Under the pieces are notes generated by a model, which was not told where the DNA came from, searched no databases, and saw only the letters and a program-made list of their open reading frames with translations. Positions 2,098 to 34,927 of a DNA stretch of 37,115 nucleotides are shown piece after piece (within the stretch, counting starts at the first letter, position 1; each line of letters begins with the position of its first letter). Origin of the DNA: Pseudomonadales bacterium RIFCSPLOWO2_12_59_9. GTDB taxonomy: Bacteria; Pseudomonadota; Gammaproteobacteria; Pseudomonadales; Pseudomonadaceae. The stretch is taken from assembly GCA_001830395.1 (NCBI GenBank), contig MHZN01000049.1:1-37115 (forward strand), read 5' to 3'. A program made the translations under genes and the position numbers.

Positions 2098-3408
2098 TTA
2101 GAAAAACCAGCTCAACTCCAGGCGTAAAAAATCGTCCTGCAGCAAGGGCCGCAATTTGTTTTGCGGGTCCGCGCTACTGAGAAACTCGACGGCGCTCTGC
2201 GGCTGCGGGCTGCCATTGGCGAACACCCGCAGCTCCAGGGCCAGCAACAGCTCATCGCTGAGCCGCCGCTCGGCCTCGACGCTGAACAGCCGCTCGCCGC
2301 TGTAGCGATCGATAATCACGCTGGTCAACAGGCTGCTGCTGGCCGCATCGTTAAACCCCAAGCGCCAGCCCAGCAGAATGTCGTGCTCGAACGGCCCGCT
2401 GGCCCGTTCATCGCGGCTGTCGTAGAGGTATTCCGCCAGCCAACCCAGATCCAGCGGGCTGTCGAAGACGCCGACCTGGGTGTATTCCAGCCCGGCGTCG
2501 GCGGCCTGGTAATTCTCCAGGCCGCCATTGCGCTGGATCGCTTCCAGCTTCCAGAGCAGATCGCCCTGGGTAACCTGCAGATCCAGCCCCAACTGATTAA
2601 TCAGCGGGTAGTAGGGCGCCAGCACCGGTGCATAGCCGGGGGCGAAGCCGCTGAGCTGGCCGTCACTGAACAGCAGCTGGCTGTAGTCAACCACCGGCAG
2701 CAGTTCCGGTTCACGGGCGGTGCCGGAGTAACCGCTGAGGCCCAGGCGCAGCGCCGGCAGATTGAGCTGCCAACGCGCGGCCAGGTCTAGGCGGTGGTTC
2801 TCGCGCGCGGATTCATAGCTGGCCAGGTCCTCATCCACCACCAGTGGCAAACGCAGCCGGCCGTCGGCGTCCGGAAAGCGCCGTTCACGGGAGCCAGTGA
2901 GCACAAACAGATCGAGCATCTGTTGCTCGCCTTCCAGCGCCAGGTTGATCATCGGTTGGCCGAGCTTCTGCTCGCCGTCGAGGCTTTCCACTTGGTCGGT
3001 CTGGTTGATGATGTCCACCAGGTGCACGCCTTCGGTGACCCCCCAAAACACTTGGCAAATCCCGCTGCGCAGCTCATAACCATCGCCCAGATGGTTCCAG
3101 CTGGCCTCGCGCAGATCGAAATGGCTGCGCTCGGCGTCGCGGCTGTCGCCCCGCACGAAGGGGCTGAGGGCGAAGCGATCACTGCCGTTGTTCAGGTCGT
3201 GCCAGAAGTTACTCAGCAGGCTCAGGGAGGTATCGCTCTGGGCTTGGCTCTGGGCGCCCTCGTCGGCGAAACCCCAGAGTTCCAGACTCAACTCGTAGCG
3301 TTGCTCCAGTGCCGATACCGGCAGGCTGGGCAGTAGGGCGAGCAGGGCAACGGCGAGGCGACTGGTGCTGTTAGCGGACACGGAGCAAGGCGTTCTGGCT
3401 AAAGTCAC
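2098..3408 (-). CDS. Putative outer-membrane beta-barrel protein associated with RND exporter
   Basis: 436-aa ORF with signal peptide-like N-terminus (LAVALLALLPSLPVSALEQ) and C-terminal aromatic residue (LRLELSWFF) typical of OM proteins; sits between RND exporter and LolA-like gene. Start may be internal because the N-terminus overlaps the next gene. Confidence 0.7.
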   Translation of the reverse strand: MTLARTPCSVSANSTSRLAVALLALLPSLPVSALEQRYELSLELWGFADEGAQSQAQSDTSLSLLSNFWHDLNNGSDRFALSPFVRGDSRDAERSHFDLREASWNHLGDGYELRSGICQVFWGVTEGVHLVDIINQTDQVESLDGEQKLGQPMINLALEGEQQMLDLFVLTGSRERRFPDADGRLRLPLVVDEDLASYESARENHRLDLAARWQLNLPALRLGLSGYSGTAREPELLPVVDYSQLLFSDGQLSGFAPGYAPVLAPYYPLINQLGLDLQVTQGDLLWKLEAIQRNGGLENYQAADAGLEYTQVGVFDSPLDLGWLAEYLYDSRDERASGPFEHDILLGWRLGFNDAASSSLLTSVIIDRYSGERLFSVEAERRLSDELLLALELRVFANGSPQPQSAVEFLSSADPQNKLRPLLQDDFLRLELSWFF

Positions 3409-25259: not shown

Positions 25260-26018
25260 GAACCCACACCCTCAACCCCTTCCACATCATCGACTCTTGC
25301 GAAAACCCCGCCTTGTGCGTCTTGATAATATTGGCCAATGGATGCCCTCCGGCAAGCAGTGACGGCATCAGGTGCTGTTGCTTAATGTGGTCCTGCGGCT
25401 TATCAAGGCCGGCATCAGCGAGCGCCTGAAAGGCCTCCAGCTCGCATGACAATATCCCGCAGCAATTGTGGGCGCCCCAAGGCTGTTGGCCAAGCCCTGC
25501 GGGTCGGTGTCCGGGAAGTAGATGACCTTTGGGATGAGCTTGGCTAATGCCGTCACCGGTGCCGGTGAGAATTGGGGTGAGCCCCGGAACACGAACGGCA
25601 CGCCGACAAGCTCAACGGGCACGCAGTAGTTATGCGCTTGCAGCATCACCTCAAGGTTCTCGACAGCAATGATGCAGGCCAAGCCCTCTAATAGGCTTGC
25701 AGGCATGGCCATAGCGCAGCCAGGCATGATCTGTTGCTGCCGATCGCCGATCGTAAGCACGCCACTGGGAGCTGCCACCAGAACCATGCTCTTGGCAACA
25801 GCCTCACCCGACAGCTTTTCGTTCCGTGTCTTGCTGGCCAGCTCGCTTCGCGATCCCACTACCTTGGCCCCTTCAATAAAAGGGTCCCAGCCTGAATGCT
25901 TTTTCAGTAGCCCTCGCAAGGCTTTGCGATCGTCAGCGTCGAGCAGCAGGATGCGGCCAAAAGCCCGGCCAACGCCGTGAGCGTGATGGATCTTCGACCA
26001 GGCATCACCTAGCACCAC
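25252..26018 (-). pseudogene. TOPRIM-like protein resembling the Wadjet JetD nuclease domain (DUF7281/DUF2220-like), frameshifted
   Basis: Frame 1 (25368-26018): LEGLACIIAVENLEVMLQAHNYCVPVELVGVPFVFRGSP...ALAKLIPKVIYFPDTDPQGLANSLGAPTIAAG; then near 25440-25455 the plausible continuation moves to another frame (SCELEAFQALADAGLDKPQDHIKQQHLMPSLLAGGHPLANIIKTHKAGFSQESMMWKGLRVWVHG). E...DxD arrangement is TOPRIM-like. Confidence 0.6.
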
Positions 26019-26029
26019 TTCTGTGGCAC

Positions 26030-27433
26030 CTAAACGGATAGCCTTACCCTAGAGTTTTCCTCGATCAATTTCGAGCGCAAAGCTTCTTCAGCAGACAGTT
26101 CTGCCGTGTGCGAAACCGTGGCCTGCTGGATTGCTTTAGCGGCCTGAGCGTTATGGTCGTCAAGGCACTTCTGCGCCTCTCGCGCTTTAATCTGTGATTC
26201 CGCTCTTCGCCTTTCACGACGCTCGGTGATCGAGTCCTTTACGCCCTCCTTCATACTGGCGAAGCGTGACTGAATATCCGTCCCCTGGATTGTCAGAGTC
26301 TGCAACTGTGTCTTTTTCGATGCCAGCTCCTCTTGCAAACCCGGAAGTGTCTTGATCTCAATAAGCGTCCCGGCAAGGCCAGCAGCATAACTATCGCGTT
26401 GCTTTTCTATCTGCTGGACACGTTCAAAAAGCTGCTGCGCCTCAGCCACAGCGGAGCCAAGCCGATTTTGAATTTCCATCTGTTTCTGGTTCGATTTCTC
26501 TTTAGCAGCAACTTCCTGCTCCCGAGCTTCCGTCATAGCATCAGAGACCTTTTTAAGCTCCGCAGAAAGTTCGGCAGTTTTTCTTGTGGCCACAGACTTT
26601 AATCGGCCTTGCTGCAATTCGTTACCCAGCAGAATGTTACGCATCTGCGAGAGTTGAAGTATCTTGGGCTTGGTTTCGCGCTCCATAACCAAAAAACTGG
26701 CTCGGCTATTGATGGCACCTGCAAAGGCGTGCGCATCAACGCCCGACAGGTCAATGTCGCTACGCATTACCTCTTGCTGGAGGATCTCGCCTACAGCGGC
26801 CTCCATTGAATTGAAGGTGCCTTTGGACTCAAGGAGCGAGAACATCAAATTGTCGATGCCCGCAAAGTGATGCTTTGGCGGGGCCAGGGAATAAGAGCGC
26901 CGATACAGCGTGATCATCTTTTTACGACTGACATCCTCTACGCCATCAAGGTCGCCTGAGCCTGTGTTGTATTGAATGATCTTCCGGTAATGCAGGGTCA
27001 ACAGCTCTGGCGTGCAGTCAATGCCCATGGCAGCCACGTGCCGTTGCACGTCTTTTGGTAGCACCAGCTCACCTGACTGCTGGTCTTTGTAAAGCAGCTC
27101 GGGCCTCCATCCGGAGGACAGCAGCTGATACGCATAACCCGAAGATGAGCGGTGCAGAATCGCGGTTCGCAACTCATTTTCGTGATTGAGGTATTCGTAG
27201 ACGATGTAGCTGGAAGCGTTCGGCAGATAGTGGTCGGCAAACCTCACGGTGTTCACCCCGCCTTTCACCATGCGACCAGCTGAAGCACCGAAGAAGAGCG
27301 GGATCAACTTCAAGAACGTGGACTTGCCAATGCCGTTCGTACCGGTCAGGCAGGTGTTTTCATCGACCTTCACCTCGACCAGAGCACCCTGGCATAGAGA
27401 GTCGATCAGTACGACGCGGAGCAGTTTGGCCAC
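26030..27433 (-). pseudogene. SMC-like P-loop ATPase, N-terminal head and coiled coil only (probably truncated)
   Basis: GTG start at 27433: MAKLLRVVLIDSLCQGALVEVKVDENTCLTGTNGIGKSTFLKLIPLFFGASAGRMVKGGVNTVRFADHYLPNASSYIVYEY...; Walker A GTNGIGKST, then long Glu/Lys/Gln-rich coiled coil; no C-terminal ABC signature or Walker B before the stop. Confidence 0.75.
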
Positions 27434-27460
27434 AAAAAGAGTCCTCGATTGCGCAGAAGT

Positions 27461-27563
27461 GTGGATAATCGTTGTTGCCGACGCATTACCCATTGCATGG
27501 TCAAATCATATTGATCGCACTACACAATCATATACGCACATCGGCAACTGAGGATTTATCCAG
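27461..27563. promoter_or_regulatory. Imperfect inverted repeat in the divergent WYL/SMC intergenic region; candidate operators
   Basis: Left arm TGGATAATCGTTGTTGCCGACG (27462-27483); right arm (27539-27562), reverse complement TGGATAAATCCTCAGTTGCCGATG. Shared TGGATAA and GTTGCCGA blocks, one arm upstream of each divergent gene. Confidence 0.5.
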
Positions 27564-28450
27564 TGTCTGAATCGATCACCTTGAGCGAGCTACCCCGCAA
27601 GCAGCGAGACCGACTGGCTTTCATTGAAATGCAGGCGTGGTTTTGCGGTGACGTGTCCCGTCAAAACGTGGTTTCTCGCTTTGCCGTAAAGACGGCGGCG
27701 GCAACCCGAGACCTCGCGCTGTATCGGTGCTTGGCACCGCAGAATCTGGCGTTCAATGACAATAGAAAGTGCTATCACCCAACGACTGGCTTCACGCCGC
27801 TGTTCGACTTCAACACAGAGCGTGTTTCGACCTGGCTAAGCCACGGCTTTGGCGATGAAGAGCCGCTGGCATGGAATACCGGGATTGAGTGCTCGATCAC
27901 CGAGCAGTTATCACGACCAAAGCTGAACCACTTGGCTGCAATCTGCCGAGCGATTAAGCAAGAGCAGCCCGCTGAGATTGAGTACCAATCACTGAACGGC
28001 AAGAGCACTCGGGTGATCGTTCCTTTTGCACTGCATAACAACGCACAGCGCTGGCATGTCCGGGCCTTTGATCGCAAGGCGAACGAGTTTCGTGACTTTG
28101 TGCTGACCCGTATTACCTCGGTGACACCGGCTGGCGATGCCGCCGCCCACGAGAAATCGGGCGAGGATGATCAATGGAACAGGAAGGTTGAACTCGAACT
28201 GGTTCCTCACCCAAATCTTGAGCGCCCAGAGCCGGTAATTTTGGATTACGACTTCGATGACACCTTGGTTAAAAAGGTCAAAGTGCGCGCGGCTGTAGCG
28301 GGTTATGCGCTACGCCAGTGGGGCGTGGATTGCTCCGAAAGCCACACGCTAAACCCGAGAGAGCACCAGCTATGGTTGCGCAACAGGGCTGTGCTTTACG
28401 GCGTACCCAACCTCAAGCTGGCGCACGGATATGAAGATGCAACCGAATAG
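27563..28450 (+). CDS. WYL-domain transcriptional regulator (BrxR/CapW-like)
   Basis: GTG start; SELPRKQRDRLAFIEMQAWFCGDVSRQNVVSRFAVKTAAATRDLALYRCLAPQNLAFNDNRKCYHPTTGFTPLF (winged HTH) ... AAICRAIKQEQPAEIEYQSLNGKSTRVIVPFALHNNAQRWHVRAFDRKANEFRDFVLTRI (WYL core). Confidence 0.85.
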   Translation: MSESITLSELPRKQRDRLAFIEMQAWFCGDVSRQNVVSRFAVKTAAATRDLALYRCLAPQNLAFNDNRKCYHPTTGFTPLFDFNTERVSTWLSHGFGDEEPLAWNTGIECSITEQLSRPKLNHLAAICRAIKQEQPAEIEYQSLNGKSTRVIVPFALHNNAQRWHVRAFDRKANEFRDFVLTRITSVTPAGDAAAHEKSGEDDQWNRKVELELVPHPNLERPEPVILDYDFDDTLVKKVKVRAAVAGYALRQWGVDCSESHTLNPREHQLWLRNRAVLYGVPNLKLAHGYEDATE

Positions 28451-28970: not shown

Positions 28971-29558
28971 TCAGTTCGGGCGTGGTGTTTCTAGTACGCC
29001 AAGTAAGACACTTAGGAGAGACTGCCCTAACCCACGGTCAAGTAATCGAGCAGACATTCCAAACGCTTCTGGGCCTTCAAGGTCAGCCTTCTTGCTGTCA
29101 CCTACGAACAGAACATCCCGCGGGCGACATGACATACGCTTACACACATCAAAATAGATTTCAGGATCAGGTTTAGCTGCGCCCACCTCGCAGCTAAAAA
29201 TATACTCGTCGACTGTGGGCAAAATAGTTCGTACCGCGGCACAGTACTCAAACGCCAAATTACTGCAGACCGCAACTCTATATCCGGCACCTTTTAGCTG
29301 AGCCAGAGTTGGCGCGACATCTGGATAGAGAGTCAGCCCATCAATTTCTTGCTGGATTTCTCTGCGAAGGATCGGCACCAAATAGCCAACTCCGAGCTCC
29401 TCTGCGAAAACATCAATTGCGACATTACGCGTGAGGATTGGCATGCGAGTTGGTTTCTCACCACTCCCGAGGCCAATTAGTCGACTGTATGGATTTGCAC
29501 GCCTCCGAGCCTTTGGGATCAGGGTGCCGAAAGCATCAAAAACGACTACGGATACCAT
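28971..29558 (-). CDS. HAD family hydrolase
   Basis: MVSVVVFDAFGTLIPKARR (DxFGT motif I), VAVCSNLAFEY (motif II), GAAKPDPEIYFDVCKRM (K motif III), VLFVGDSKKADLEGPEAFGM (motif IV). Confidence 0.88.
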   Translation of the reverse strand: MVSVVVFDAFGTLIPKARRRANPYSRLIGLGSGEKPTRMPILTRNVAIDVFAEELGVGYLVPILRREIQQEIDGLTLYPDVAPTLAQLKGAGYRVAVCSNLAFEYCAAVRTILPTVDEYIFSCEVGAAKPDPEIYFDVCKRMSCRPRDVLFVGDSKKADLEGPEAFGMSARLLDRGLGQSLLSVLLGVLETPRPN

Positions 29559-29801
29559 GCTTACTCTCGGCTCTGACGATTAGCAGTGCGCACCGCCGCA
29601 CATTGAAAACTGGTCGATCCAATTTGAATCTCACAAAAAGGAAAGACCCGATAAACCTGCATCCAAGCAATGGAAAAGGCTCCGGAAGCAGTCACAGTAG
29701 ACCCTCACTTGGAATTTCCGCCTTACTCGGCCAATGCATCAAGCCTAGTCATCTACTCAATGCGGCGAGTGTTGGCGCAATTGGTAGTCCCATGTGCTAG
29801 A

Positions 29802-30095
29802 TCAGGTTCTGATTTCACTATCTTCCGCAATCAGTTTCTGAATACGACCAGTTTCATCCAGCCTGGCGGTAATGAGCAGGTTATATGGAATGGTTCCGCC
29901 TATCCTGCGGATGTATTCCTCTTTTTCAGCGAGCATGTTCACCTCGCTTGCAGAGGGATAATGACGCAGAGCGCGCGTGGCCTGGCGTTTTATCTCATCG
30001 CTGACCTCGCTGCTGGTAGTCAGGCTGTTGAGGAATTGGCGCACTTCCATGAGTGCGGCAGTGCGTTCGATCGGCATAGTCACGGCTGCCTCCAT
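29802..30095 (-). CDS. BPSL0761-family-like small protein
   Basis: MPIERTAALMEVRQFLNSLTTSSEVSDEIKRQATRALRHYPSASEVNMLAEK: resembles the TMPxERTRAvxxxREFLxxL...LLRHYPTxxDM pattern of accessory-genome BPSL0761 proteins. Confidence 0.65.
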   Translation of the reverse strand: MEAAVTMPIERTAALMEVRQFLNSLTTSSEVSDEIKRQATRALRHYPSASEVNMLAEKEEYIRRIGGTIPYNLLITARLDETGRIQKLIAEDSEIRT

Positions 30096-30202
30096 TAAAT
30101 CGCTCCGGGTTTCGTAGACATCTCCAGGCCTAAGCCGGAGCGTAGTCGTTTATGGTTCCGCCTCTAGGACATTGTTCAGACGCATTTAGCTCCGCGGCGT
30201 GA

Positions 30203-31066
30203 TCAAGCCCCGTCATTACTGAGTAGAAGCTGCCAATCTCGTGAGACAAGTGTTTCGCATGCCTGAGGAGCACCACCAAAGCAGCGCTCTGAAACTGCGT
30301 CCATCACAGCTGCAGTGCGATAACTGATTGCCACGCCATCCTGGTTTACCAAGGTGCCGCCTGAAGCGCGTAACAAGGCGTGCCCGGCAACAACGTCATG
30401 CGCAGAAACCGGGTACAAGGACACTGCACATATGCCGTCGCCGGCGGCGACTCGGGCTAAACGATAAGCGATGCTGGGCATTGCAACGAAACGCCCAGGG
30501 GCACAAAGCTCTGCATTAAGCAGAGACTTTTTCACAGCAGCGGCGCTAACCATTACGTGATCGGAATCAGTCAGTTTTCGGTCCGTCAGATCCAAGTTTA
30601 CTGGCAGGCCGTTACGCAGTAATTCAGGCAATCCTTCAGCCCACGCAATGCAGTCAGCTCCGCGCGCCTCGGTAACAGGTGCATAAACAACACCGAGTAC
30701 AGGAATGCTGTTGCGCAGCAAGCCTACAGACACGGCAGACCCTTTCAAGCCTCTAAGAAAGTCGGAGGTTCCATCATTTGGATCGACAACCCAGCAGTAG
30801 GCGTGGCCCGATAGTATGTGGCCGGTTTCTTCGCCCCAAAAATCACACGGCAATAGCGTCAAAAGTCGCTGACGCAAAATAAGCTCGATCTCAACATCAA
30901 CGTCCGCTTTGTCGCCTTGACCACGAGGGCCACCTGCACGCGCCCACTCCGCTTCGATCAGCTTTCCAGCAGACTCGACTACATCCATAACCTGGATCAA
31001 CAGTTGCGGAAGGATAACGTCACCCATCTGAGTCGACCGGCTGTCCCTACTTGTCTGCTTACTCAC
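30203..31066 (-). CDS. Inositol monophosphatase / 3'(2'),5'-bisphosphate nucleotidase-like protein
   Basis: FWGEETGHILSGHAYCWVVDPNDGTSDFLRGLKGSAVSVGLLRNSIPVLGVVYAP (EE and DPxDGT metal-binding motif); C-terminal SAHDVVAGHALLRASGGTLVNQDG. Confidence 0.85.
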   Translation of the reverse strand: MSKQTSRDSRSTQMGDVILPQLLIQVMDVVESAGKLIEAEWARAGGPRGQGDKADVDVEIELILRQRLLTLLPCDFWGEETGHILSGHAYCWVVDPNDGTSDFLRGLKGSAVSVGLLRNSIPVLGVVYAPVTEARGADCIAWAEGLPELLRNGLPVNLDLTDRKLTDSDHVMVSAAAVKKSLLNAELCAPGRFVAMPSIAYRLARVAAGDGICAVSLYPVSAHDVVAGHALLRASGGTLVNQDGVAISYRTAAVMDAVSERCFGGAPQACETLVSRDWQLLLSNDGA

Positions 31067-31271
31067 GGTCCCATTGCTCGACTAACTCATCAATGCGATT
31101 GGGAATGCGCGGGATTTTTGAAATGACAAGGACCCGAGTAGTACCTATGAACTCCTCAACCAGGTAAACCGTGTCACCGACATCCCCCCCCATTTCCTGC
31201 AAAACCTCATCCGGTATTCGGATGCCGCCATCACCATCCCAGTCCTCAATCGTAATCGGCTGGTTGTACAT
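31059..31271 (-). CDS. AbrB/MazE/SpoVT-like DNA-binding protein (antitoxin-like)
   Basis: MYNQPITIEDWDGDGGIRIPDEVLQEMGGDVGDTVYLVEEFIGTTRVLVISKIPRIPNRIDELVEQWDRE: swapped-hairpin AbrB pattern; 8-nt overlap with the IMPase-like gene. Confidence 0.75.
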   Translation of the reverse strand: MYNQPITIEDWDGDGGIRIPDEVLQEMGGDVGDTVYLVEEFIGTTRVLVISKIPRIPNRIDELVEQWDRE

Positions 31272-31335
31272 GCTGTCCTCACTCCACCTGAAAAATGATG
31301 TGCGCTCACGCTTATAAGCGCTGTCGATACCACAT

Positions 31336-32736
31336 TTAAAAGCAGGCCAACAACTGTTGCCGATAGTGCTTGGAAAAGCTGACCTGATAGCTTGACTCAG
31401 CCACAAAGTCCGCTTGAGAGTAAGTGCTCATAGCGCCTAAGCCGACAGCCTGTTCGGCTCCTCCTGCAATACTGCCGCCGTGGCCATCGATATTACCGGC
31501 AGATCCAATCCAGCCGATATCTGAACCTGAAGAGACGACAGGCATCTGCACCGCGCTCCATACCGCCAGGTCATCCGGCAGATCATCCGCAATTCTCTCC
31601 GCTAAGCGCTGTAGCGTTGGCTCCGCCAGCATGAAAAGCCATGCGCGGTCATCGGTCTGACCAGTACGCCGAAGCACTCGGCCCAGCACTTGCCGGTAAT
31701 GCAGTTCGGTACGGATGCGGCTGAGGTAGCAGCACACCTGTAAGCGGGGGATGTCGGTGCCTTCACTGATCATCCCCACGGCAACAATCCACCGGCAGGC
31801 GCTGTGCCTGAACACATTAATCACTTGCTGCGCATCCGGAGTTTTGTTGGTCACGATGCAGCAACCTTCACCCCTGGTGACGAGAGCCTGGGCTATTTGC
31901 TGAGCGTGCTCAATGTCGGTGGCAACTACCAAACCGGCTGCATCAGACTTGATAAGACGAAGCTCATTGAGCTTGTTACAGCCAAGATCGAGCAGTTGAT
32001 CAATCACCTCGTCATGGCGTAGCAGTTCTTCATAGGTGACAGGGGATTCCCCCAAGAGCTTGGCAATGCTGGAAAACAGCTTCACAGAGCTATCACCACC
32101 CAGTTCTTCCGTGACTTTCACCTTCTCATTGTCGAGCAGGACAATGCGCGGGGATCGACACACGCCGTCAGCTACGGCGTCTTTCAGGCTATAGCGGTAG
32201 TCACAGATCAGGTGCCCCTCGGGTGTCGAATAGCGTGCCAAGGCAATGGCCCGGTCATCCGAGCGCCATGGTGTGCCGGAGAGAGCCAGCGTGAAGGCAG
32301 CCTGATCCTGTATCCGGAGCAGTATCTGCTGCCCCCAAGCGTTGCTAAGAAGCGGATCATGACCTGCGCAATGGTGGATTTCATCGAAGACCACGAGCAC
32401 ACGGTAGTCATCAAGAAGCTGCCAAAACCCCTCATCTCGGTACTCCATAGCCTGGTAGGTAGACGCTTCCCCCACTGCGCCAATCTGGCCATCAAAACGC
32501 CGGCCAAGTACCGTGACAAAGGTTGAACGAAGGCCATCAACAACTTGGCAGGATGGTGCGAAACACAACACTAGATCGATCCTGTCCTGCTCAAGCAGTC
32601 TGCTAGCCAATTCTGCCGCCATGCGCGTCTTGCCGGCACCCGGTGTTGCCTGGCAGAAGAAATGCGGCGTAACGGCAAAGTGCGCCAACGCCGTATTGAT
32701 GCAGTTGTTTTGCCAGTCTCGTAGCGATCTGGTCAT
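31336..32736 (-). CDS. SF2 DEAD/DEAH-type helicase (DEIH box)
   Basis: CQATPGAGKTRMAAELASRLL (motif I), VLVVFDEIHHCAGHDPLL (motif II), LALSGTPWRSDD (motif III), VAVGMISEGTDIPRLQVCCYLSRIRTELHYRQVLGRVLRR (motifs V/VI). Confidence 0.9.
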   Translation of the reverse strand: MTRSLRDWQNNCINTALAHFAVTPHFFCQATPGAGKTRMAAELASRLLEQDRIDLVLCFAPSCQVVDGLRSTFVTVLGRRFDGQIGAVGEASTYQAMEYRDEGFWQLLDDYRVLVVFDEIHHCAGHDPLLSNAWGQQILLRIQDQAAFTLALSGTPWRSDDRAIALARYSTPEGHLICDYRYSLKDAVADGVCRSPRIVLLDNEKVKVTEELGGDSSVKLFSSIAKLLGESPVTYEELLRHDEVIDQLLDLGCNKLNELRLIKSDAAGLVVATDIEHAQQIAQALVTRGEGCCIVTNKTPDAQQVINVFRHSACRWIVAVGMISEGTDIPRLQVCCYLSRIRTELHYRQVLGRVLRRTGQTDDRAWLFMLAEPTLQRLAERIADDLPDDLAVWSAVQMPVVSSGSDIGWIGSAGNIDGHGGSIAGGAEQAVGLGAMSTYSQADFVAESSYQVSFSKHYRQQLLACF

Positions 32737-33323
32737 CGTGCGGCGGCAAGCGTCTTACGTGTATTCTCTATGGCGCGAAGATGACCCATCAGGATAGAGC
32801 TTTGATTTCTAGCCTTTAGATACTCGCCCTCAACCTTATCGCGCAGATGCGGCATATCATCCAGTAGCTGTTTGTAGCGCGCCGCCTCGCCCATCAAAGA
32901 CAGGAAATCCAGCTGAATCTCATTTTCGAGCGTTTCCAAGTAGTGATCCGTATCCGGTAAAGGACTAAGCGGTAAAGCCGAATTATCGGACACTGATAAC
33001 TCCTGCTCTGCCTCAAAAACAGGCTTAAGGCTGTTCTCGAAGCCGTTGTCGATCAGCTCCAACTGCAAATGCGCCGGAATGGGTTGCAGGTGATAGACCT
33101 GCCCACGCACACGGCGTTCCTTATCGTGTACTAGCCAGTCCATGCGCAGCATTCGGCGGATCTGCTCATACACATAGCGACGTACATCGGCGATACGGAA
33201 ATTCATGCCATTTAGCTGTTTGGCATAGGCGTCGCGTAGTTCACGGGTCGTGAACTTTGTACGCCCTTCCTCCTGAAGCAACCCATACAGGCGCCTGTCA
33301 AAGATGAACGAGGCCGATTTCAT
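32733..33323 (-). CDS. Uncharacterised 196-aa protein operonic with the helicase
   Basis: 4-nt overlap with the helicase start; MKSASFIFDRRLYGLLQEEGRTKFTTRELRDAYAKQLNGMNFRIADVRRYVYEQIRRMLRMDWLVHDKERRVRGQVYHL: winged-helix-like N-terminus, helical C-terminus. Confidence 0.75.
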   Translation of the reverse strand: MKSASFIFDRRLYGLLQEEGRTKFTTRELRDAYAKQLNGMNFRIADVRRYVYEQIRRMLRMDWLVHDKERRVRGQVYHLQPIPAHLQLELIDNGFENSLKPVFEAEQELSVSDNSALPLSPLPDTDHYLETLENEIQLDFLSLMGEAARYKQLLDDMPHLRDKVEGEYLKARNQSSILMGHLRAIENTRKTLAAAR

Positions 33324-33353
33324 TAAGGCACCAGAAGAGTAATAGCGTAAAAA

Positions 33354-33387
33354 TACGGATTATAGTCCGTGGATCGTGCGTCCGCAA
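33354..33387. promoter_or_regulatory. C-box-like tandem dyad operator overlapping a leftward sigma70-type promoter
   Basis: ACGGAttatagTCCGT (33355-33370, perfect 5-bp arms) followed by GTGGAtcgtgcgTCCGC (33369-33385); core TATAGTCCGTG. On the minus strand TTGCGG (33387-33382), 17-nt spacer, TATAAT (33364-33359). Confidence 0.7.
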
Positions 33388-33426
33388 ACGCTGGATAGTG
33401 CCGCCTCAAGTAGAATTGAGACGGTC

Positions 33427-33657
33427 ATGGATAAGTTGGCGCAGGCGTTAGGGGAACGCATCCGGGCACAGAGGAAGACCTGCGGGATGTCTCAGGATGC
33501 GCTAGCACTGGCCTGCAGTATCGACCGCAGCTATGTGGGGCGAATCGAGCGGGGTGAAGTAAATATTACTGTCGAGAAGCTATATCGCCTCGCTGCTGAA
33601 CTCGCCTGCGAGCCGTCCTGCCTTCTGCCTACAACATCTGATTTGCAGCCCAGCTGA
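33427..33657 (+). CDS. Small XRE-family HTH regulator, C-protein-like
   Basis: MDKLAQALGERIRAQRKTCGMSQDALALACSIDRSYVGRIERGEVNITVEKLYRLAAELACEPSCLLPTTSDLQPS: single HTH_3 domain, size and layout of R-M controller proteins. Confidence 0.85.
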   Translation: MDKLAQALGERIRAQRKTCGMSQDALALACSIDRSYVGRIERGEVNITVEKLYRLAAELACEPSCLLPTTSDLQPS

Positions 33658-34398: not shown

Positions 34399-34714
34399 TC
34401 ACCGCACCTGCCAAAGCTCATCCAACCGAGTAGTAAAACTTGGACTCTTGAGTTCCTGCCGCATACCCCAGTCTGGCGTTGCCGGAACCCCACCTGGGCG
34501 CAGCGTTCCCCTTCCCCATTTCGCATTAATCTTGTCCATCACTCCCATGACCCGCTCGCTCGTCGCGGGCTGCACTAGGGCGAACAGATCGTCGGTGAAG
34601 ATCCACCAGCAGCACTTCGGCCTTGCTGAATTTGAATCCCTCCCTGAACACTTCGTCCAGGCCGGCCATGGCCGCCTTCGTGATGATTCGGGTGTCGTCG
34701 GTTGGATATGGTAT
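34399..34714 (-). pseudogene. umuC: umuC (Pol V catalytic subunit) C-terminal remnant, frameshifted
   Basis: Frame A: IPYPTDDTRIITKAAMAGLDEVFREGFKFSKAEVLLVDL; frame B: FTDDLFALVQPATSERVMGVMDKINAKWGRGTLRPGGVPATPDWGMRQELKSPSFTTRLDELWQVR. Together resemble the UmuC C-terminus ending (S)YTTRLDxLWxVR. Confidence 0.85.
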
Positions 34715-34927
34715 CTATCCGCGTAGAACACAGCACGAGCATAATCAAGCGTCTATAGAAGTGGTAGATGGCGCGATAGTCCCTGCGCCAAAGCGCAGTA
34801 CATCCCCCTCTCCCTGAACTCTGCCTTACCGAATTTCACAACTTAAATTCCCGGCGGGCTTACTCGGACGCCAGCTTCTCGAAAGCGGAGATGGGCAGAA
34901 GCTGCGCCCTGCCCGTTTACCGGCCAC

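Follow-up and report, generated by a model that had tools for sequence, protein, structure and literature searches.

A probable restriction-modification controller-type operator between an XRE regulator gene and a divergent winged-helix and helicase gene pair in Pseudomonadales

To our knowledge, the switches built by controller (C) proteins have been studied almost exclusively within restriction-modification (R-M) systems. PvuII has a layout in which the M and C genes diverge. The binding sites of C.Esp1396I consist of GAC and GTC on either side of TATA and have a TG motif farther out (PMC3758141), and their bases are read by residues R35, T36 and R46 of the protein (PMC4041747). Occupancy of the OL site activates, and filling of both sites represses (PMC8053105; reviewed in PMC12707154). 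C.Kpn2I represses an overlapping methyltransferase promoter (PMC6237814).

We analyzed a 37,115-nucleotide stretch of DNA from Pseudomonadales bacterium RIFCSPLOWO2_12_59_9 (hereafter, the window), in which a gap of 103 bp (33324-33426, ATG to ATG) separates the divergent genes P196 and XRE. XRE (33427-33657, plus strand) encodes a 76-aa XRE/HTH_3 regulator: the Pfam HTH_3 domain spans most of the protein (E 7e-14), the PADLOC "control protein" models match it (E 2e-13), and its closest sequence in the PDB is C.AhdI (1y7y, E 1.9e-10), with the next match far behind (2.7e-6). An earlier note on this DNA had taken the protein for a C-protein type, and these matches agree with it. On the minus strand, the genes P196 (32733-33323) and HEL (31336-32736) share a 4-nt overlap. 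The AlphaFold2 model of the 196-aa P196 protein (mean pLDDT 82.8) predicts a winged helix joined by a disordered linker to a helical hairpin. Its nearest solved fold is PadR (E 7.5e-4), with a low TM and poor overall superposition, and P196 is matched by neither PADLOC nor PHROG models, nor by Pfam above its cut-off. HEL is a 466-aa RadD-like SF2 helicase/translocase with Pfam ResIII and Helicase_C domains, whose GK, DE-HH and QxxGR motifs are invariant in the HEL alignment (A5). RadD is its top match in fold (PDB, E 8e-19) and family, at ~20% identity and 47.9 bits against a RadD family cut-off of 720; unlike RadD, HEL is paired with P196 and lies on mobile islands. The curated anti-phage models of PADLOC returned no match to the pair beyond weak partial helicase ones for HEL. 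Downstream of HEL (28971-31406) lie genes for a MazE-like domain protein, an inositol-phosphatase/CysQ-like protein, a BPSL0761 family member and a HAD hydrolase, a set that partly recurs in two related loci, L050 and L080. Farther on, a DUF3584 SMC-like gene (25368-27493), whose match covers no more than positions 1-453 of the 1191 in the profile, adjoins a DUF7281 gene, and a WYL regulator gene diverges from them at 27563-28450; this region is probably a truncated defence locus.

The gap between P196 and XRE contains a strong operator, OL (CGGATTATAGTCCG, 33356-33369, centre 33362.5), and a weak operator, OR (33371-33384, centre 33377.5), 15 bp from it, with the spacer CGTGG between them. 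The earlier note had described two adjacent dyads; the first and the 15-bp distance stand, and the second is in the window a half-site, the right-hand GTCCG, at the correct distance. The first dyad, ACGGATTATAGTCCGT at 33355-33370, pairs in 7 of 8 mirror positions. By itself it is only mildly unusual, since 19 of 1000 dinucleotide shuffles of the gap equal its pairing. GATTATARTCCGTG has one exact copy in the window, and no shuffle contained three matches to it at ≤2 mismatches. Owing to the lengths and match levels that they require, neither the inverted-repeat finder nor the promoter scan picked up the operator. The position of the second site is apparent from the relatives: when the right half of the dyad was compared, over 50 loci, with the sequence at downstream shifts of 9 to 24 bp, half-site similarity peaked at a shift of 15 bp (4.4 of 7 bases, against ≤3.1 at other shifts). 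A half-site PWM also gave its best mean at offset 15; 25 loci individually score best at offset 33, over the −10 GATAGTGCC, so that the per-locus calls of the PWM are not decisive. Distant relatives have a fuller second site—TATA stands on the second centre in L008, L009 and L025, and the whole GTCCGC is repeated in L027.

These features parallel the C.AhdI/C.Esp1396I type in several respects: a small single-domain XRE protein (a class of about 70-100 aa), a pair of TATA-centred operators at a distance of 15 bp with CGTG in the spacer, a strong site distal and a weak site proximal to the regulator gene, and a divergent promoter overlapped by a site. The C-box architecture proposed in the earlier note is thus borne out in its spacing, centres, spacer and polarity towards the regulator gene. 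The C.Esp1396I OR is printed as TGTGTGATTATAGTCAACA and OL as ATGTGACTTATAGTCGTGTGATTA, the latter being 24 letters for a 25-mer (PMC3758141). The distance from centre to centre is 15 bp in both the window and C.Esp1396I. The printed OL presumably lacks one C after TAGTC, and given this extra C, TTATAGTCCGTG of the window equals the C.Esp1396I OL core, and GATTATAGTC equals the OR core. The two differ in the half-site, which here is GGAT/RTCC with an extended CGGAT arm and not GACT/AGTC, and in the degenerate second site and predicted leader of the window. The linkage of C genes to a restriction gene, usually with co-transcription, is absent in the window, and is present by position in L163, L079, L104 and the loci with MmeI-like genes.

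The regulator also differs in its presumed reading residues. XRE retains R34 and S35 (S35 as in C.AhdI), V45 replaces the equivalent of R46, one of the three base-reading residues, and a new arginine, R39, appears in the motif DRSYxGRxERGEV and is kept in nearly all close relatives. In L010 and L011, K39 accompanies TGCC half-sites, and in L025, H39 accompanies GGCC, with the 15-bp spacing unchanged. This co-variation of residue 39, in the reading helix, with the half-site is suggestive and rests on two switches.

The conservation of the operator and the genome scan rule out a chance dyad. The layout is kept in 50 distinct homologous gaps, and dozens of Pseudomonas relatives share the switch. 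Across 46 aligned gaps, the columns CGGATTATA-TCCGT are invariant; in the numbering of the gap, the invariant positions are C33-A41, T43-T47 and G49. OL varies at one A/G position, and the dyad has a mean conservation of 0.97, compared with 0.80 for the initial 30 bp of the gap. Among order-level relatives fetched by helicase, the operator TATA-N2-CCGTGG is found in 10/10 loci with XRE and in 0/17 loci with P196-HEL and without such an XRE (Fisher p 1e-7, uncorrected for relatedness). The earlier note had looked to conservation at homologous helicase loci, which is thereby confirmed where XRE is present. The exact 17-mer CGGATTATARTCCGTGG occurs at 11 sites in 11 of 392 genomes of the order and at 59 sites in 54 of 299 genomes of the family, two overlapping sets in which 70 is the sum of sites, whereas the reversed 17-mer has 0 sites in both scans. 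XRE adjoins the 17-mer at all 38 sites with enough contig, and P196 and/or HEL are present at 37 of the 39 examined sites, some of which also served to define the motif. In the genome of the window, the operator site is the sole exact copy. A match of the same type, CGGATTATAGTCCGTGG, directly precedes the start of a related XRE in a phage contig (L102, 7553-7604), so this type of operator is also used outside R-M and helicase loci. A second viral-contig match (L103) lies within a coding frame and is probably due to chance. The C-type controller and operator are, judged by their architecture and linkage, well supported at the level of sequence.

Probably, a C-protein-like autoregulator uses this site as its operator and thereby controls a mobile pair of winged-helix protein and helicase. 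The direction of this control would follow from the positions of two promoters. The P196-HEL promoter on the minus strand has a TATAAT −10 (33359-33364), which is invariant and lies within OL, and a TTGCGG −35 (33382-33387) in a block conserved at 0.98, separated by a 17-nt spacer; this is the leftward promoter that the earlier note had read, and it is both present and conserved. On the plus strand, the putative −10 of the XRE promoter, GATAGT (33394-33399), is nearly invariant (GATA-T in all 46 gaps) and stands 30-31 bp away from the centre of OL, a distance that the divergent L008, L010 and L025 share. This distance places OL at about −43 of the predicted XRE start and OR over the −35 region, where no recognisable −35 is found; OL at about −43 would be a C-like geometry of self-activation. 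The standard built-in promoter scan, which is stricter, listed neither the rightward promoter nor the TTGCGG one.

If XRE is absent from a cell, nothing would occupy the leftward promoter, and P196-HEL would be made first. As XRE builds up, a dimer on OL would block the P196-HEL promoter and at the same time aid RNA polymerase at the weak XRE promoter, until higher XRE levels fill OR, which overlaps the XRE −35 region, and limit XRE itself. The outcome would be a burst of P196-HEL upon entry into a new host or upon loss of XRE, with low expression afterwards. As OR in the window is only a half-site, the co-operative filling of the two sites may be weak. The layouts of C.Kpn2I and PvuII would be comparable: in them, divergent promoters share a single region bound by C, which represses the gene that diverges from its own. 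The partner here is a winged-helix protein with a helicase and not a methyltransferase.

The earlier note had proposed the opposite order, with XRE delaying and then activating a costly or toxic P196-HEL pair in the manner of restriction-enzyme timing. C proteins do time restriction genes, and both P196 and HEL are expected to act on DNA; however, OL overlaps the −10 of P196-HEL, which is a repressing position, 17 order-level relatives have P196-HEL pairs without this XRE or operator, and nothing in the analysis supports a toxic or costly pair. The location of OL on the −10, as at C-repressed methyltransferase promoters, makes an early burst followed by repression likelier than delayed activation. 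We find delayed activation barely credible, and the earlier note was probably wrong on the direction of timing.

A simpler regulator of the Cro/CI type would bind OL as a negative autoregulator, repressing both promoters without self-activation, and its likeness to the C-box would reflect nothing more than shared ancestry. A TATAAT-like hexamer on both strands of OL means that one dimer could block both promoters, the P22 C2 repressor is among the PDB relatives of XRE (E 1e-5), and the dyad directly upstream of the related XRE in the phage contig fits simple autorepression. By contrast, an activated promoter would require an element such as the invariant GATAGT, whose distance of 30-31 bp to the centre of OL is fixed. 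The rightward TATA within OL lacks a conserved −35 and is preceded by a stretch of variable length. Simple autorepression is therefore unlikely, and C-like self-activation is the reading that we retain.

The predicted XRE mRNA has a leader of about 21 nt, whereas C genes usually have leaderless mRNAs (PMC4824078). The stretch from the putative −10 to the XRE ATG contains an inverted repeat, CCGCCTCAA-N6-TTGAGACGG (33401-33424, plus strand), which is marked by covariation: 90.8% of cells are paired, 0 of 500 shuffles reach the covariation score, and variant forms are kept in L008, L139 and L145. In a read-through RNA the ribosome-binding region would be hidden (predicted mean unpaired probability 0.30), and in an RNA from the predicted XRE start it would be freer (0.61), the same being true in 48/48 loci; this contrast depends on the assumed start of transcription. 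The hairpin in the window is no more stable than in shuffles (z −0.5), and relatives with perfect arms reach z of about −2 to −2.7. Hairpins that block translation of read-through transcripts are known in transposase genes, and the XRE leader hairpin may be analogous to them. P196 was considered as a binder of the repeat and is disfavoured, because the repeat persists in L139 and L145, in neither of which a neighbouring P196 was found.

A further explanation is suggested by the neighbourhoods of related loci: XRE could be the true controller of an R-M system located 3' of it, with P196-HEL as a passenger and the R-M genes of the window lost or replaced. Many relatives have type I or MmeI-like genes on the 3' side of XRE. 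These genes are co-directional with XRE in the type I loci L079, L104 and L163 and in nine loci with MmeI-like genes at 354-375 bp, and fragments of hsdR remain beside XRE in several further loci. In Mycoplasma gallisepticum, too, the first gene of a type I hsd operon is of the C family (PMC12707154). By contrast, the divergent P196-HEL is far more constant (37/39) than any R-M gene, the hsd genes of nine complete type I systems 3' of XRE are convergent with it and so not readable from its promoter, and the window 3' of XRE contains no R-M fossil, a UmuC remnant being all that was found. A dedicated R-M controller is thus very unlikely. The earlier note had remarked on the absence of restriction or methyltransferase genes, and a Pfam scan of the ten genes at 25.4-33.7 kb confirms it at the locus, the part of the window before 25 kb being covered by reading rather than by the scan; it does not extend to the module, which in relatives carries type I or MmeI-like genes 3' of XRE.

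The UmuC remnant (34399-34731, minus strand) is the C-terminal part of a UmuC/RulB protein, with a frame break near residue 376, and may mark a former hotspot of insertion; in Pseudomonas, the umuC homologue rulB is known as such a hotspot (PMC4542609). Other neighbours in relatives include ginABCD, a gamma-mobile-trio, a DUF499/DUF1156 anti-phage set, BREX, Lamassu and integrases, with ginABCD adjoining the trio of P196, HEL and XRE in L067, L093, L094 and L096. GInt mobile islands have the ginABCD operon at one end (PMC5385486). A GInt element in the window itself was rejected: gin genes are absent, and no fossils of them were seen. The integrase- and defence-rich setting suggests that P196-HEL serves to establish or defend the element.

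The partner of the switch is not constant in all relatives. In L163, XRE and the operator stand at the head of a type I hsdR-M-S set, and the gene that diverges from them encodes an unrelated 381-aa protein, of which L145 has an apparent homologue. This suggests that the controller can be separated from its partners. The 381/436-aa proteins form a Cys-containing family of alternative divergent partners (L163, 8487-9632; L164, 10278-11588), whose member in L139/L163 has no Pfam or PADLOC match. Another lineage of P196-HEL, in L024, has a different, longer divergent XRE and two ACTTAG-N5-CTAAGT dyads 34 bp apart (3197-3250), which recall the operator type of C.Csp231I. A similar role is known for RptR, a dedicated small repressor with its own site in a defence-island promoter, often beside type I R-M genes (PMC12255303). 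RptR differs in having another fold, in reading TAGCTA repeats and in repressing the promoter of its own island, where XRE is set against a divergent helicase pair.

Here, the C-type layout is linked to a helicase pair found on mobile islands and defence islands, and the R-M genes next to it are interchangeable. Tentatively, XRE and its C-box might form a portable timer of early burst and shut-off that serves varied partners—P196-HEL, which is widespread on integrase-rich islands, type I or MmeI-like R-M genes, or the Cys-containing protein—and P196-HEL might be a novel system for establishment or defence that is expressed when a new cell is entered. If this were true, the timing circuit would be a module in its own right, detectable in genomes by its 17-mer signature with zero background in the control, and a two-gene system of Pseudomonas and other gammaproteobacteria would thereby be named.
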